Source: Shewanella sp. UCD-KL12 (GTDB lineage: Bacteria > Pseudomonadota > Gammaproteobacteria > Enterobacterales > Shewanellaceae). Taken from it: DNA of 64,000 bases. Shown here piece after piece: positions 10 through 9,816 of the stretch (positions are counted from its first letter, which is position 1; each line of letters begins with the position of its first letter). The position numbers and the translations under genes are program-made. The notes below the pieces were generated by a model that worked only from the letters and a program-made list of their open reading frames with translations, had not been told where the DNA came from and ran no database searches. The stretch spans positions 21,201-85,200 of the forward strand of contig NZ_MPHJ01000015.1 in assembly GCF_001957125.1 (NCBI RefSeq), in the 5' to 3' direction.

Positions 10-85
10 TGGTGGGTCGTGAAGGATTCGAACCTTCGACCAATTGGTTAAAAGCCAACTGCTCTACCAACTGAGCTAACGACCC
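10..85 (-). tRNA. tRNA-Lys (anticodon UUU), copy 1
   Basis: This is a 76-nt cloverleaf on the minus strand. It has a GGGTCGT/ACGACCC acceptor stem, a D-arm with AGCTCAGTTGGTAGAGC, an anticodon loop CTTTTAA giving UUU, the TTCGAATC T-loop and an encoded 3' CCA. It is the most distal of four identical copies that read towards the left edge. Confidence 0.97.
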
Positions 86-204
86 ATCTCGGTAATGCTT
101 TCTAAATTTGCTTACTCATCAAATAAGTAAGTCCACTTTCAGAAGAGTGGTTTTGAATTTAGCGACTAATACTCAATGTATTTCGCACACTTTCAAAAAA
201 AGTG
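86..204. repeat. tRNA spacer repeat, copy A
   Basis: This spacer resembles the one at 475-591. Both contain a TCGGTA start, a CCACTTTCAG...GAGTGG hairpin, TTTAGCGACT and TATTTCGCACACTTTCAAAAAA. The spacers evidently duplicated together with the tRNA genes. In this copy the final GTG is followed by about 75 nt of unrelated sequence (205-278), which begins with AAAGCCAACTG as in the tRNA, before the next tRNA. That stretch may be a rearranged tRNA remnant. Confidence 0.75.
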
Positions 205-278
205 AATAAAGCCAACTGTGCTTATTTAAAGCATCAACTGAACTAGCCTTTCATCTCCAATTTTACCACTAGGAGAAG

Positions 279-354
279 TGGTGGGTCGTGAAGGATTCGA
301 ACCTTCGACCAATTGGTTAAAAGCCAACTGCTCTACCAACTGAGCTAACGACCC
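279..354 (-). tRNA. tRNA-Lys (anticodon UUU), copy 2
   Basis: This copy is identical in its 76 nt to the other three, with UUU anticodon and encoded CCA. It lies 44 nt from copy 3, the shortest spacer in the array. It is probably processed from the same polycistronic precursor that starts near 750. Confidence 0.97.
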
Positions 355-398
355 GTCTGGTAAGACTGTTTCTAATTCTTTAGCCACTTTTAGAAAAG

Positions 399-474
399 TG
401 GTGGGTCGTGAAGGATTCGAACCTTCGACCAATTGGTTAAAAGCCAACTGCTCTACCAACTGAGCTAACGACCC
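399..474 (-). tRNA. tRNA-Lys (anticodon UUU), copy 3
   Basis: This is an identical 76-nt tRNA-Lys with UUU anticodon and encoded CCA, lying between a short spacer (355-398) and a long repeat-type spacer (475-591). Confidence 0.97.
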
Positions 475-591
475 ATCTCGGTATTGCTATCTGAATTTGC
501 TTGCCTATCTCAATAAGCGAGTCCACTTTCAGTTGAGTGGTTTTGAGTTTAGCGACTGATACTTAACGTATTTCGCACACTTTCAAAAAAG
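475..591. repeat. tRNA spacer repeat, copy B
   Basis: This spacer is a diverged duplicate of 86-204. It keeps the TCGGTA start, the CCACTTTCAG...GAGTGG inverted repeat, the TTTAGCGACT block and the TATTTCGCACACTTTC end, and it joins directly to the next tRNA. Confidence 0.75.
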
Positions 592-667
592 TGGTGGGTC
601 GTGAAGGATTCGAACCTTCGACCAATTGGTTAAAAGCCAACTGCTCTACCAACTGAGCTAACGACCC
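592..667 (-). tRNA. tRNA-Lys (anticodon UUU), copy 4 (promoter-proximal)
   Basis: This is the first gene of the tRNA array in the direction of transcription. Its 76 nt match the other copies exactly, with UUU anticodon and encoded CCA. The candidate promoter lies about 90 nt upstream at 754-781. Confidence 0.97.
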
Positions 668-4479: not shown

Positions 4480-4914
4480 CTACTCCTCTGGTGTATCTGT
4501 CATCAAACCAACCGATGGAACGCCTGCTCCTTGAAGTGTCACCATAAGCTGAATCACTCTTTCATAGGCAATAGCCCGGTCAGCTTTAACCACAACGGGG
4601 CGCTCAGGTTCAAGTTGGATAATCGCCCCCACTCGAATCGCTATCTCTTCAAGATCTAACGTCTCTTTTGAACTCGAACTGCCAACATCTAAGAAGTAAT
4701 CTCCATCAGCATCGATAGAGGCAACGACAGGCGGTTTACTGTCAGCAGGAAGAGATTCAGAGGTTGCTTGTGGTAAGTCAACTTTAACCCCTTGGGTAAC
4801 AATCGGTGCAGTCACCATAAAGATAATCAATAGCACCAACATCACATCGATATAAGGTACAACATTGATCTCAGCAACTGGACGTCTACGCTTTCGCTGG
4901 TAGCCCTGTTGCAT
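4480..4914 (-). CDS. tolR: Tol-Pal motor subunit TolR
   Basis: TolR belongs to the ExbD/TolR family and pairs with TolQ to harvest proton motive force at the inner membrane. The 144-residue protein has a short cytoplasmic start (QRKRRRPVAEINVVPYIDVM). A single membrane helix carries the conserved Asp of PYIDVMLVLLIIFMV, which is the proton-binding residue in the family, and a periplasmic domain follows. Its start overlaps the tolQ stop by one base, indicating translational coupling. Confidence 0.97.
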   Translation of the reverse strand: MQQGYQRKRRRPVAEINVVPYIDVMLVLLIIFMVTAPIVTQGVKVDLPQATSESLPADSKPPVVASIDADGDYFLDVGSSSSKETLDLEEIAIRVGAIIQLEPERPVVVKADRAIAYERVIQLMVTLQGAGVPSVGLMTDTPEE

Positions 4915-5603
4915 TAGCCTTCTTCCCTATCTGTATACGCTTGGCGGTGTAAAATACTTGAGAACTCCTCCATGAAGTTCGCATAAGACATTTCGACACT
5001 ATCAACCTGGGTAGTAAAACGGTTATAGGCTATAACTGCAGGAATCGCAGCAAAGAGACCCATAGCGGTTGCAATCAAAGCTTCGGCAATGCCTGGAGCG
5101 ACCATAGCAAGGGTGGCATTTTCAACGGCGCCGAGTGCAATAAAGGAGTTCATGATCCCCCATACGGTACCAAATAAGCCGATGTATGGGCTGGTTGATC
5201 CGATAGTGGCTAATAGAGGGAGGTTTTTTTCTAACTTTTCCATTTCTCGAGAAAGAGAAACCCGCATAGCACGGTATGTACCGTCCATGACAGCACCTGG
5301 TACTTTGTCATTAAGCTTACTTAATCTTGCATACTCTTTAAAGCCAGTATGAAACAGGACTTCAAGGCCTGCATTGTTATCCTGTCTCGCGGAAATCTCT
5401 TTATAAAGTTTATTCAGGTCTACACCTGACCAGAACTTATCCTCAAACTTCATTGAGTCTTGCTTCGCAGCGTTAAGTAGTCGACGACGTTGAATAATAA
5501 CCGCCCAAGAGATCACTGACAGGCCCAGCAAGGTGAGCATAACAAACTTAACTAATAAGCTGGCTTGTAAAAATAGCCCTATAAATGAAATATCAGCTTC
5601 CAC
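4914..5603 (-). CDS. tolQ: Tol-Pal motor subunit TolQ
   Basis: TolQ is the ExbB/MotA-family proton channel protein of the Tol motor. The 229-residue product has three membrane segments: one near residues 13-35, and two in the second half ([21 protein letters not shown] and [27 protein letters not shown]). These hold the conserved GLFGTVWG and glycine/alanine-rich packing motifs. The start is GTG. The gene overlaps ybgC by 11 bases at its start and tolR by one base at its end. Confidence 0.97.
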
Positions 5604-5991
5604 GATTAAACTCCTGAACTATATTTTGTGGGATGGCACGGGGCCTCATACGAGATAAAGAGATACAAGCAACCAAGATCTTACCCTCGCAATACACAAC
5701 ATCTTGCTCATCAACTAAACGTTGCTGAAAGGTCAAAGATGCTTTCTTGGTTTCTATGACAACAGTTTCGACGGTAAGGTTCTGCTCAAACCTGGCTGCA
5801 CGGCAAAAATCTAATTCAGCCTTCTTAACAACAAAGGCGATATCCTCGGCCAACAAAGCAGTTTGTTTCACACCAATGGCCTTTAACCACTCGGTGCGCG
5901 CACGCTCAAAAAAATTAAGATAATTTGAATGATATACAACGCCACCGGCGTCAGTATCTTCGTAATAGACTGAAATGGGCCAACGAAACAT
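5593..5991 (-). CDS. ybgC: Acyl-CoA thioesterase YbgC
   Basis: YbgC is a small hot-dog-fold thioesterase that hydrolyses short acyl-CoA or acyl-ACP esters and is nearly always the first gene of tol-pal operons. The 132-residue protein has the family signature [28 protein letters not shown], written here in two parts: [16 protein letters not shown] holds the catalytic Asp and the tyrosine/histidine pair, and FFERARTEW follows it. It overlaps tolQ by 11 bases. The operon promoter should lie between 5992 and 6100, where no clear -35/-10 pair was identified. Confidence 0.95.
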
Positions 5992-6162: not shown

Positions 6163-8313
6163 TTAGTTAACTTTTGCAGGTATTTTTAAACCAAAACTCT
6201 CAAACAGGAAGCTATAGATATCAGCAAACTCATCAATTTTCATCGACGTAGGTTTACCTGCTCCATGACCTGCTTTTGACTCAATGCGCATAATGACTGG
6301 TGCATCGCCCGTTTGTTTAGCCTGCATCATAGCGCCAAATTTAAAGCTGTGAAGAGGCACGACACGATCGTCATGATCCGCTGTCATCACCATAGTAGCT
6401 GGGTAGCTACGCTCGGTGACGTTGTGATATGGCGAGTACGCTAATAATGCAGGGAACTGCTCAGCCACATCCGCACTTCCGTATTCACTTGTCCAAGCCC
6501 AACCGATGGTAAATTTTTGGAATCTAAGCATATCGAGAACGCCTACCGCAGGTAACACAGCAGAAAACAGATCAGGGCGTTGAGTTAACGTTGCGCCCAT
6601 CAATAATCCACCGTTACTACGGCCATAAGCACCTAGCTTAGTCTTGTTAGTGTAGTTCTCATCAATGAGATACTCAGCAGCAGCATAATAGTCATCAAAC
6701 ACATTTTGCTTCTTATCTAACATTCCAGCCTTATGCCAGCTTTCACCATATTCAGCACCGCCTCGCAGGTTTGGCACAGCATAAATGCCGCCCATATCCA
6801 TCCAGGCAATGTTTGCAGGGCTAAACCTTGGCGTTAGAGAGATAGCAAAACCGCCATATGCATAGAGCAATGTTGGATTGGCGCCGTTTTTCTTTAATCC
6901 CTTTTTATAAGAGATCATCATAGGGACACGGGTACCATCTTTGCTGGTATAGAAAACCTGCTCAGACACATAGTTTTCCGGGTTAAACGACACCTTAGGC
7001 TCAGCAAATAAACTCGACTTACCGGTTTTAAAATCAAACTTGTAGGTCGTCTTTGGTTGCACATAGCTATTAAAGACATAGTAGAAGTAATCTTTACTTC
7101 TTTTACCGTAAGGACCCGCAACTTTACCTTTACCAGGCAAAGAAACGTCTTGGCGCTTTTCACCATTCATACTGAATATGGTCAGTTTTCCTAACACATC
7201 GTGTAGGTAGCTAACGACTAAGTGGTCATTAATGATGGCAATATCACTGATAGGATCGCTTGATTCAGCAACGATGGTTTTCCAGTTACTTTTCTCAGGC
7301 TGATTAACATCTACAGCGATAACTTTGCCATTTGGCGCATCGAGATCTGTCTTAAAATAAAAGACTGACTTATCGTTACCTAAAAAACTATATTCAGCCT
7401 CTAGGTTAATAATAAGCTCAACAACATCCGATTTCCCATCTAAAGGCTTGTAGAAGAAACGATTTCTACTGTCGGTACCTTGCCACACAGAAATAAGCAG
7501 ATAGTCACCAGCTTCGGAGACATCAGCACCAAAGCCCCAATCTTTATTTTGTGGGCGCTCATAGATAAGTGCATCTTGCGACTGTTCGGTACCTAGCTTA
7601 TGAAAATAAACTTTCTGGTTAAAGTTCACATCAGCCAGCGCGTTACCGCCTTCAGGTGCATCATAACGAGAATAGTAAACACCCGTATTATCTTTGTTCC
7701 ATACGGCTTTAGAGAACTTGATCCACTTGAGTTCATCGCTAAGTGCCTCACCGCTCTCAACATCGACAAATTGCCACTGTTGCCAATCTGAACCAGACTT
7801 AGATACGCCATAAGCTAAGGTTTTACCATCGCCACTCACTGATACCCCTGACAAAGCAACGGTGCCATCAGTTGATAGACTATTAGGGTCTAGTGCCACT
7901 TTCTCTTGGCCATCTTTTGTTTTTACAAACAGAACAGATTGCGCCTGAAGACCATCATTACGATAGAAGAAGGTATTATCACCATGTTCAAATGGTGCCG
8001 ATACCTTCTCATAGTTCCAAAGTTCAGTAATACGATCGACCACGGCTTGCTTATTAGTAATACCTGATAAATAAGCCTTACCTTCCGCTTGCTGCGCCTT
8101 TACCCAGCTTGTTGTCAGTGCTGACTCTTCTTCAAGGTAGCGATAAGGATCCGCAACCTCTACGCCATGAATGGATTCAACGGTATCCCCTGCTATAGCA
8201 ACGAGAGGAGAAACTTCTTCAGTTTCTTGCTGAGTTGCTTGGCACCCCATTAATGCCAAGGTTAAACCTGCGAGAACCAAATGACGCTTTTTCATCTTAC
8301 TTTTAAATATCAT
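6163..8313 (-). CDS. Prolyl oligopeptidase family serine peptidase (S9A), lipoprotein
   Basis: This enzyme cleaves short peptides after proline. The 716-residue protein begins with a lipoprotein signal peptide (LAGLTLALMGC), so it should be anchored in the envelope with the catalytic part in the periplasm. The N-terminal region (about 40-430) is the propeller filter, opened by the typical DPYRYLEEE motif. The alpha/beta-hydrolase domain carries the triad: Ser566 in YGRSNGG, Asp near 649 in ADHDDRVVPLHS, and His683 in KAGHGAG. AGGAAGG lies directly upstream of the first ATG and supports that start. The gene is monocistronic with its own terminator. Confidence 0.95.
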   Translation of the reverse strand: MIFKSKMKKRHLVLAGLTLALMGCQATQQETEEVSPLVAIAGDTVESIHGVEVADPYRYLEEESALTTSWVKAQQAEGKAYLSGITNKQAVVDRITELWNYEKVSAPFEHGDNTFFYRNDGLQAQSVLFVKTKDGQEKVALDPNSLSTDGTVALSGVSVSGDGKTLAYGVSKSGSDWQQWQFVDVESGEALSDELKWIKFSKAVWNKDNTGVYYSRYDAPEGGNALADVNFNQKVYFHKLGTEQSQDALIYERPQNKDWGFGADVSEAGDYLLISVWQGTDSRNRFFYKPLDGKSDVVELIINLEAEYSFLGNDKSVFYFKTDLDAPNGKVIAVDVNQPEKSNWKTIVAESSDPISDIAIINDHLVVSYLHDVLGKLTIFSMNGEKRQDVSLPGKGKVAGPYGKRSKDYFYYVFNSYVQPKTTYKFDFKTGKSSLFAEPKVSFNPENYVSEQVFYTSKDGTRVPMMISYKKGLKKNGANPTLLYAYGGFAISLTPRFSPANIAWMDMGGIYAVPNLRGGAEYGESWHKAGMLDKKQNVFDDYYAAAEYLIDENYTNKTKLGAYGRSNGGLLMGATLTQRPDLFSAVLPAVGVLDMLRFQKFTIGWAWTSEYGSADVAEQFPALLAYSPYHNVTERSYPATMVMTADHDDRVVPLHSFKFGAMMQAKQTGDAPVIMRIESKAGHGAGKPTSMKIDEFADIYSFLFESFGLKIPAKVN

Positions 8314-8613
8314 AGTTGCCTTCCTGCTGCTGATATCATTATTTATTATTATCTTCCTGTCTGAGTCATAAACTCAGCATGGATGCCACTATACAAGTAA
8401 TAATGAGTGAATCAATCAAAGAAAAATTTATGACTAGAAATTTAGCAAGCGTGAATGTTAATAATCCTGTAACACGGTTTAATTAAATAATGCGTAGAAT
8501 TATGCAAGTAAACTGCTTAATCACTCGTAAAAGCTTTGAATTACTGCATTTATGAATATAGATCACACTTAACTAGATTAGATTTACTAATGCGAACTGG
8601 TATTTTTTCTAGT
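8314..8613. other. Intergenic region upstream of prolyl oligopeptidase
   Basis: This AT-rich stretch separates the prolyl oligopeptidase start from the small-RNA candidate. It must hold the peptidase promoter, but no convincing -35/-10 pair was recognised. An isolated AGATCACA half-site is present near 8558-8566. No coding potential was seen. Confidence 0.4.
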
Positions 8614-8642
8614 TTGCGAGTTTTTAGCTCCGGCCCTATAAT
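8614..8642 (+). promoter_or_regulatory. Sigma70 promoter of the small-RNA candidate
   Basis: TTGCGA (8614-8619) and a perfect TATAAT (8637-8642) are separated by 17 bp, the optimal spacing. No reading frame starts downstream, so the promoter points to a non-coding transcript beginning near 8649. Confidence 0.75.
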
Positions 8643-8648
8643 TATCTC

Positions 8649-8814
8649 GTTTTCAGGAAGTATCTGTTTTACAGATATGAAAACAAGAACTCTTAATTCC
8701 CGTGTCTAACACGTGAATTTATCCCTGGTTCTTATGCTTGACTTCCTTCCTTCAATTTGTTGATTGCAATATATTATTTGCGGCCCGCTTAAGTTATTAA
8801 GCGGGCTTTTTTTT
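8649..8814 (+). ncRNA. Candidate trans-acting small RNA (about 165 nt)
   Basis: A near-consensus promoter, two strong hairpins and a textbook terminator frame a 165-nt unit without a reading frame. Hairpin 1 pairs GTTTTCA (8649-8655) with TGAAAAC (8678-8684), and TATCTGT (8661-8667) with ACAGATA (8671-8677), leaving a 5-nt GGAAG bulge. Hairpin 2 pairs AATTC-CGTGT (8695-8705) with ACACG-GAATT (8709-8719) with one mismatch. A single-stranded pyrimidine stretch, GACTTCCTTCCTTCAATTTG, and AU-rich sequence follow, then the terminator with eight U. This layout fits an Hfq-type small RNA. The pyrimidine stretch could pair with Shine-Dalgarno sequences and slightly resembles that in FnrS. It converges on motY. 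I do not recognise a named family. Confidence 0.68.
8783..8814 (+). terminator. Rho-independent terminator of the small-RNA candidate
   Basis: GCCCGCTTAA (8783-8792) pairs perfectly with TTAAGCGGGC (8797-8806) across a 4-nt loop and is followed by eight T. Confidence 0.93.
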
Positions 8815-8865
8815 GCCTGAAATTTAGCAACTTATTAAAACCTTCGTACCGTTTTCAAACTGAAG

Positions 8866-8946: not shown

Positions 8947-9816
8947 TCATAAAGGTTTACTAATCCTAATGACAACACGTCTGTTTCTTGCACGTTCATC
9001 GATAGTATCGTTTGATGCAACGTGACGCCTCTCACCATGTCCGACTGTATAGATCCGTTCTTGGTCTATGCCTGCAGCTAAAAAGAACTCTTTAACAGAA
9101 TCAGCTCTATCTTCTGAAATCTTCTTATTGACCGAGCGTCCACCATAACTATCGGTATAAGCATCAATCAAAACCACCTCAACATCGGGATCATAAGCCA
9201 GATACTCCTGCACTTTAGCCATTTGTGCTTTCGCATACCGAGTTAGCTCAGAGCCACCAAATTCATAGGTTAAAACAGTAAATGCAATGTCATCGAAGCT
9301 ATAAGGTAATAAGCCAGCTAAGCACGCCTTAAACTGACCATACTTACGATTAAAATTAACTGCTGATAAACCTACTGCAATTTTATTAGCTTCGTTATAC
9401 CAATCAGCATAATAAAAAGTAGGCTGCATACCACGTTCAAGCTCGGCTAACATTGACCAAGCCGCATTACGAGGCACTTCACCACTAAAGTATTTTTGAT
9501 AGGTAAGCTCAGTAATTGATTTAGATAGAATGCCTGGACGCCAAGCTGGCGCCATACTCATTAATGTTGCCTGAGTCACTTGATCAGGTTTTACCCACAT
9601 ATCTAAACTAAAATCTAGATTATGGTCTTTACCGGCGGTACTCGTGAAAACGGCTTTTCCATAGGAGGGAATATCATGCTCGAGACGGCATATGATCGGT
9701 GAGTTACCACTCAACTTCCATTGAGATTGATCGAGAGAGGCAACATAGTGACGCAATTCTGCAGTCGCAAAAAAGGGCAGGCACAATGTTGACGCTAACA
9801 ATACTCTAAGCCACAT
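8947..9816 (-). CDS. motY: Sodium-type flagellar motor T-ring protein MotY
   Basis: MotY forms the periplasmic T ring that anchors PomAB/MotAB-type stators around sodium-driven polar flagellar motors. The 289-residue protein has a signal peptide (LLASTLCLPFFATA). A MotY-specific N-terminal domain (about 20-150) follows, then an OmpA-like peptidoglycan-binding domain (about 165-289) with VVLIDAYTDSYGG, the modified counterpart of the usual GHTD, and ERIYTVGHGERRH and ARNRRVVIRI. No stator genes lie in this window. It is divergent from rnt with about 140 bp between the starts, and it has its own terminator. Confidence 0.93.
   Translation of the reverse strand: MWLRVLLASTLCLPFFATAELRHYVASLDQSQWKLSGNSPIICRLEHDIPSYGKAVFTSTAGKDHNLDFSLDMWVKPDQVTQATLMSMAPAWRPGILSKSITELTYQKYFSGEVPRNAAWSMLAELERGMQPTFYYADWYNEANKIAVGLSAVNFNRKYGQFKACLAGLLPYSFDDIAFTVLTYEFGGSELTRYAKAQMAKVQEYLAYDPDVEVVLIDAYTDSYGGRSVNKKISEDRADSVKEFFLAAGIDQERIYTVGHGERRHVASNDTIDERARNRRVVIRISKPL

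Follow-up and report, generated by a model that had tools for sequence, protein, structure and literature searches.

An intergenic segment that lies, in the window (the whole 64,000-nt stretch of Shewanella sp. UCD-KL12 DNA that was analyzed), between a gene for an S9 prolyl-oligopeptidase-family protein and motY raises two questions: whether it holds the gene of a small RNA (sRNA), and what such an RNA might do. The initial annotation had placed a stand-alone sRNA gene between these two genes, and both the placement and the proposal itself were borne out. The 241 bases at 8590-8830 match 36 out of 36 Shewanella genomes in a sequence search of 60 genomes in all, and the helices of the predicted RNA covary, so the presence of a free-standing, conserved gene, from which the RNA would be transcribed, is strongly supported. 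Since the neighboring genes are all located on the opposite strand (Table 1), the sRNA is not the leader of any of them.

A 22-letter core pattern was found once in each of 73 DNA stretches of a named genome collection, every one with a Shewanella title. The 109 loci collected, among which are duplicates and loci truncated at the end of a contig, include 103 with full flanks, of which five (L036, L063, L071, L092 and L093) were dropped by the automatic setting of RNA ends and were all recovered by a later covariance model. The alignment of 50 sequences, picked from 73 distinct RNAs, and a separate genus alignment of 36 loci revealed an invariant block with variable hairpins on either side. The covariance model scores 174.9 bits on the window sRNA, whose sequence is itself part of the model. 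The neighborhood is mostly stable, with motY present at 98 and the S9 peptidase gene at 61 of the 109 loci. At the five listed loci with ybgC and no peptidase gene (L035, L036, L040, L077 and L093), ybgC-tolQ is the nearest on that side of the six genes searched for; in the window these two genes are situated just past the peptidase gene. Elsewhere in the window (13-667, minus strand), a row of four tRNA genes was noted, each of which scores 78.1 bits with its model.

The sRNA family is new: in searches of Rfam release 15 with the window and with the sRNA region, no family reached its cut-off at the sRNA. The earlier statement that no named RNA has this layout holds at that level, and fails for the promoter, the layout of which is that of gcvB (see below). 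No description of the RNA was found in the available text of PMC3536696, PMC9409037, PMC5002191, PMC3658693, PMC3658540 and PMC5471319, or in the titles and abstract openings of the other literature searched. Neither motY nor an oligopeptidase is mentioned in the accessible part of PMC5471319, whose predicted sRNAs of S. piezotolerans might include the gene unnamed.

Table 1. Features of the sRNA locus and its surroundings (positions in the window)
Feature	Position	Strand	Description
tolQ	4914-5603	opposite to sRNA	named by eye
ybgC	5593-5991	opposite to sRNA	
S9 prolyl-oligopeptidase-family protein	6163-8313	-	divergent from sRNA
GcvA box	8577-8591	+	ATTAG-N5-CTAAT (ATTAGATTTACTAAT); centre -65 from predicted transcription start
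TTTTTCTAGTTTG-type element	8600-8617	+	overlaps -35; candidate second, weaker GcvA site (putative IR2)
Sigma-70-type promoter	8614-8642	+	TTGCGA-N17-TATAAT; -35 at 8614-8619, -10 at 8637-8642; 10/12 consensus; positions conserved in alignment
Small RNA	8649-8814	+	approximately 166 nt, first base predicted; genus-wide matches, covariance model, covariation
5' hairpin	8649-8684	+	GUUUUC/GAAAAC closing stem; GGAAG bulge 8656-8660
Second hairpin	8685-8733	+	AAGAACU/GGUUCUU outer stem, covarying inner stem
Invariant core, proposed seed	8740-8752	+	GACTTCCTTCCTT; 13/13 columns invariant in 50/50 sequences
Second conserved stretch	8754-8770	+	AATTTGTTGATTGCAAT, U/G-rich; possible second seed
Intrinsic terminator	8782-8814	+	11-bp stem 8782-8807, T8 at 8807-8814
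motY	8947-9816	-	convergent with sRNA

The fold of the sRNA region (-46.9 kcal/mol; z-score -5.3) is more stable than those of 200 out of 200 shuffled sequences. In the 50-sequence alignment, 102 cells were changed on both sides of a pair, compared with 33.6 in shuffles, and the covariation score was 0.249, compared with 0.136; this support, which is somewhat biased in favor of the tested structure (derived from the same alignment), falls sharply once the pairing partners are shifted by 1-3 columns. The minimum-energy fold of the window sequence shows the first hairpin as previously described, with two 7-bp helices and the GGAAG bulge. Among relatives its outer helix can nearly always form (99.7% of cells paired in the 50 sequences), but it is closed by the minimum-energy fold in just 54% of them. 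The second hairpin, described as one of 10 bp, is present and larger: a 5+5-bp inner stem, with changes on both sides in five of the six consensus pairs of the inner helix, is enclosed by an outer stem of 7 bp. The terminator with its U8 tail was found as proposed; 7 of its 11 consensus pairs are changed on both sides, and three terminator-like sites were found where 0.6 were expected. The loss of the hairpins and promoter among related genomes, which the initial annotation had named as grounds for refutation, did not occur, both being conserved in the Shewanella relatives.

No reading frame is conserved throughout the alignment, because a 9-codon ATG frame (MLDFLPSIC), which overlaps the invariant core in the window, has its start destroyed in 4 of 50 aligned rows and ends early in L026 and L030. 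That the locus serves to encode this very short peptide seems hardly credible: the ATG is kept in 44 rows and replaced by GTG in two more, but besides the destroyed starts and early ends, the third codon positions within the core are as invariant as the others. With its promoter, structure and terminator, intergenic position and lack of a conserved frame, the gene has the general characteristics of an intrinsically terminated sRNA, which would act in trans.

The promoter, originally described as near-consensus with optimal spacing, has a 17-nt spacer and conserved positions. The match alone is at chance level, as three promoter-like sites were found and 3.3 expected; the case for the promoter is therefore made by its conservation and not by its match score alone. 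Upstream of it, the sequence-only reading had overlooked the inverted repeat at 8577-8591, a probable indication of the physiological place of the RNA. Footprinting described in the available text of PMC5002191, which does not mention Shewanella, defined the GcvA repeat as ATTAG-N5-CTAAT, with two copies centred at -65 and -43 relative to the start of gcvB. The E. coli gcvB box (K-12 record), ATTAGTTTTTTTAAT, has one mismatch and its centre is at -65, which is also the distance of the Shewanella box if 8649 is taken as the (predicted) start. Among 82 distinct upstream regions (88 distinct ones among the 109 loci, minus six with cut flanks), the box is perfect in 58, has one mismatch in 17, two in six and four in one, these regions being related sequences rather than independent ones and the spacer bases varying freely; in 1,640 composition shuffles a perfect box was never found and one with a single mismatch was found in 0.6%. 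The TTTTTCTAGTTTG-type element is located where a second GcvA site would be (E. coli IR2 at -43) and is conserved across the genus alignment, as well as in three genomes from outside the genus (G040, G262 and G064, described below).

The regulator itself is encoded in the same genome. Its GcvA scores 476.9 bits with the NCBIfam GcvA model (cut-off 288) and shares 71% identity with GcvA of E. coli; gcvA is carried on contig C45 and the sRNA gene on contig C7, so the two are not adjacent. The box also precedes gcvA in the own genome (L173), in L120 and in seven loci picked by eye (L140-L144, L146 and L149). Among the listed matches from 36 genus genomes, a box with an A/T spacer recurs before a LysR-type gene adjoining an apparent thiI, and it is the own-genome copy of this gene that encodes the GcvA scored above. 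Single examples, in one or two genomes each, precede genes for gcvT, L-serine ammonia-lyase (two genomes, one of them family-checked) and glycine C-acetyltransferase. Eighteen sites chosen by eye comprise seven at gcvA, four at glycine or serine genes, two near a transporter gene and five at unrelated genes, and among 30 unselected sites (one per genome), 20 lie within reading frames and one each precedes gcvA and kbl.

Shewanella genomes encode many LysR-type regulators, and another of these might read the box, which would place the RNA in a different circuit. The 10-base pattern is short and not enriched genome-wide (8 sites in the own genome, compared with 15 for a reversed-pattern control). 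We nevertheless consider this alternative improbable, as the box corresponds to the GcvA repeat published in PMC5002191 (accessible text), is also present before gcvA and is found, with one mismatch, at an identical offset in front of E. coli gcvB.

Two further observations were made on promoters of this type. The side divergent from gcvA is occupied, in seven of eight Shewanella gcvA loci, by a gene for a protein of approximately 75 residues (L173:1662-1886 on contig C45 of the own genome), which appears secreted by eye and is conserved (relatives in L140-L144 and L149). This gene stands behind a GcvA box and an sRNA-like -35 element, at the place taken by gcvB in other bacteria, and its own-genome product was assigned to no NCBIfam or Pfam family. 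A second promoter of similar design (box, AATTTTTCTCGTTTG and TAGAAT) is present near an apparent purL in genome G004 (L145:2480-2820), where it precedes a 25-codon frame, not found in the other loci compared, and a terminator-like hairpin, perhaps forming another GcvA-controlled short transcript.

Within the RNA, the strongest constraint falls on the pyrimidine-rich core. Its mean unpaired probability is 0.67, compared with 0.42 for the whole RNA, and falls below 0.5 in 8 of 50 sequences. The pyrimidine stretch that begins at 8740 had been described as unpaired, which is true of 8740-8751 in the window fold; the bases at its end take part in a weak helix of 4 bp. The core GACUUCCUUCCUU is able to cover ribosome-binding sites of the AAGGAAG type, and the masking of Shine-Dalgarno sequences by CTTCCTTCC, suggested before, is the most likely mode of action, considering that the core is invariant and more accessible than the rest of the RNA. 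The CUUCCUUCC stretch would thus probably serve as a seed that blocks ribosome-binding sites. It is followed by the second conserved stretch, in which the conserved sequence UUUGUUGAUUGC is only half accessible (mean unpaired probability of 0.47); for comparison, the R1 seed of GcvB is G/U-rich and single-stranded. Trans-acting sRNAs of the anti-Shine-Dalgarno type have a C/U-rich seed. The Shewanella RNA resembles them in its mostly unpaired C/U-rich invariant stretch and differs from the known families in having no match at an Rfam cut-off; frnS of Neisseria (RF01796), for instance, gave just 17.1 bits on the window.

Two roles had been suggested for the GGAAG bulge. Pairing with the CTTCC stretch is feasible, with at least six contiguous pairs, in 31 of 50 sequences, and is not universal; where it occurs, the 5' segment may hold the seed in check. 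The second role, CsrA binding, can draw on a GGA kept within the first 14 nt of 44 of the 50 sequences, the sole GGA found conserved. Sponges of the CsrB/CsrC type, which sequester CsrA, carry many GGA motifs; the Shewanella RNA shares with them a GGA in a hairpin bulge, but has one conserved copy and not the many in hairpin loops by which such sponges are recognized. An RNA binding CsrA or another protein, with the bulge as its functional site, is very improbable, given this single motif, the stronger constraint on the core than on the bulge, the predicted pairing of the GGA in several sequences and the ability of the 5' segment to pair with the core.

These features can be accommodated in one scheme, in which the RNA would probably be a trans-acting sRNA activated by GcvA, the Shewanella counterpart of GcvB. 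At high glycine concentrations, GcvA, a regulator of the LysR type, would occupy the site at -65, and probably also a weaker one near -43, and activate the promoter as it does at E. coli gcvB. The resulting 166-nt RNA, ended by the intrinsic terminator, would bind Hfq through its U-tail, and its accessible core, perhaps together with the U/G-rich stretch, would pair with ribosome-binding sites and block the translation of mRNAs whose products serve in the use of amino acids or peptides. In Vibrio and enteric bacteria, GcvB is considered a master RNA regulator of amino-acid uptake (PMC9409037, available text). The Shewanella RNA shares with GcvB (RF00022; E. coli, Salmonella and Vibrio) the GcvA repeat at -65, an intrinsic terminator, a conserved single-stranded stretch as (here proposed) seed, the ACUUCCU sequence and a similar size (166 and 206 nt, respectively). 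It differs from GcvB in its score below the Rfam cut-off, its location away from gcvA, its hairpins and its main conserved stretch, which is pyrimidine-rich rather than G/U-rich. On the sequence level, then, one of the GcvB hallmarks (the -65 repeat) was found, and two (a score above the cut-off and adjacency to gcvA) were absent; the RNA is best read as GcvB-like in its control, while being neither a recognizable GcvB homolog nor a neighbor of gcvA. No GcvA-controlled RNA of Shewanella was found in the titles and abstract openings of the literature searched.

A canonical GcvB seems to be missing from Shewanella. The Rfam model (cut-off 42 bits) exceeded its cut-off in none of 36 genus genomes and in one of the 14 genomes used as controls (presumably that of E. 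coli); it gave no match at E <= 10 in the sRNA region of the window and none at E <= 3 at eight Shewanella gcvA loci. In V. alginolyticus, gcvB is located between thiI and gcvA (PMC9409037, available text). Because the first search step was loose and the best sub-threshold hits in the genus reach 33.9 bits, a highly divergent GcvB might exist elsewhere. Twelve of the many sub-threshold loci (L158-L169) were followed and rejected: the best GcvA box within 100 bases upstream always had at least two mismatches, six of the twelve overlap predicted frames and two more share another site. Five of them (L159, L162, L163, L164 and L169) have sequence in common and lie near an apparent priB or rplI, at least four adjoining the apparent priB; they probably represent a conserved element other than GcvB.

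The sRNA might, however, be a true GcvB that moved away from gcvA and diverged beyond recognition, and would then be an ortholog instead of a replacement. We regard this as fairly unlikely. The regulator site is the same and at the same distance, E. coli GcvB contains two copies of ACTTCCT and a UUGUUG...UUGCAAU-like stretch can be seen by eye in both RNAs, but the order of these two shared words is reversed. The full-length GcvB model weakly aligns to the homologs in G040 and G262 (approximately 20 bits; E-values of 0.63 and 0.86, or 0.016 with a search space of only 281 bases), but several unrelated families outscore GcvB at the same place in G040, so that the terminator may make up much of its score. 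The model also remained below 42 bits wherever it was tested, including the absence of a match in the window region, and the locus lies away from gcvA in G040 and G262 as well as in the genus.

Related genes occur, as judged from their sequences, in one sister genus and in another family, where two genera carry them beside ybgC-tolQ, as in the window. When 295 genomes of the order were searched with the 50-RNA covariance model, 24 gave matches; 21 of these belong to the genus, and of the three weak matches outside it, two were kept after inspection. The first, G064 (other genus, same family), has a box with one mismatch, GGTTCTTTGCTTAACTTCC and a terminator, and no ybgC neighbor within the available stretch. 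The second, G040, belongs to another family; its locus, flanked by ruvB and ybgC-tolQ, combines a box without mismatch with AACTTCCTTC and a terminator containing GGCCCGC. A box-plus-core pattern matched 24 of 394 genomes, namely 22 of 30 genus genomes, G040 and G262, a further genus of the G040 family in which the locus is again situated between ruvB and ybgC. Since the reversed control of this pattern matched three genomes, the two matches outside the genus are at chance level by count, and the case for them is built on the promoter, core and gene order that they have in common with the genus; the wider homologs share the box, the -35 element and an ACTTCC core. Two other matches were rejected, one in G039 that lies within a coding gene and one in G069 that carries AACTTCCTTC and for which frnS (53 bits, cut-off 60) is the better explanation. 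A near-cut-off match to this Neisseria sRNA family (53 of 60 bits) was noted at L435:1495-1615; the genome concerned is incomplete and belongs to another family.

Returning to the reading as a GcvB counterpart, we lean towards an exchange of the RNA arm of the GcvA circuit, in which GcvB would have been lost beside gcvA and an unrelated RNA of the ybgC-tol region would have taken over. On balance, such an exchange, in Shewanella together with at least some of the lineages related to it, appears the better guess as a non-orthologous replacement that kept the regulator, its site and the promoter geometry and brought in a different seed. If true, a small RNA that ranks among the best conserved in Gammaproteobacteria has been replaced non-orthologously. 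A GcvA-controlled RNA with a different sequence would mean that a transcription factor can retain an sRNA output even though the RNA itself is exchanged or rewritten, and would provide a concrete, testable regulator of amino-acid and peptide use in a metabolically important genus.

The predicted physiological role is read from the promoter, with its GcvA box, the target list contributing no general target. GcvB is a repressor of mRNAs for the transport of amino acids and peptides. In the own genome, a search for long duplexes (at most 3 mismatches in 21) returned the sRNA gene itself only. In a scan of 1,019 predicted start regions (approximately one fifth of the own genome), 8.5% reached -8.8 kcal/mol; as the core is close to an anti-Shine-Dalgarno sequence, start regions should show complementarity to it by chance alone. 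The best start-region candidates followed, a gene for an AEC-family transporter and dapB, were rejected as poorly conserved, with 5 of 28 and 6 of 29 orthologs in other genomes at or below this energy.

A ribosome-site pattern was also searched for in 36 genomes; from the listed matches, 29 loci were examined together with 20 regions picked by eye. The lead obtained is the start region of a secreted-looking M3-family peptidase (Pfam Peptidase_M3; the nearest NCBIfam model is Dcp, with 684.5 bits on a partial sequence, below its cut-off of 944). From 30 loci, 24 ortholog-like copies were kept and six more distant ones dropped, although good pairing is also seen in one of the latter (L408). When the four discovery loci are excluded, 9 of 20 reach -8.8 kcal/mol, compared with the 8.5% of own-genome start regions (rank test p = 4e-6, uncorrected for relatedness and for the choice of family). 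The own genome has no close ortholog (best match 42% identity), and the peptidase can therefore not be a general target. The pattern also matched, in three genomes (L361, L375 and L376), before the start codon of an apparent acetyl-CoA synthetase gene located approximately 15 kb from the sRNA gene, where the seed-matching sequence is AAGGAAGTCAG. In E. coli, GcvB is linked to curli. In the own genome, a gene for a protein with curlin-like repeats (recognized by eye) carries AAGGAAGTCA at its ribosome-binding site (L308:1500-1520; C1:1171519).
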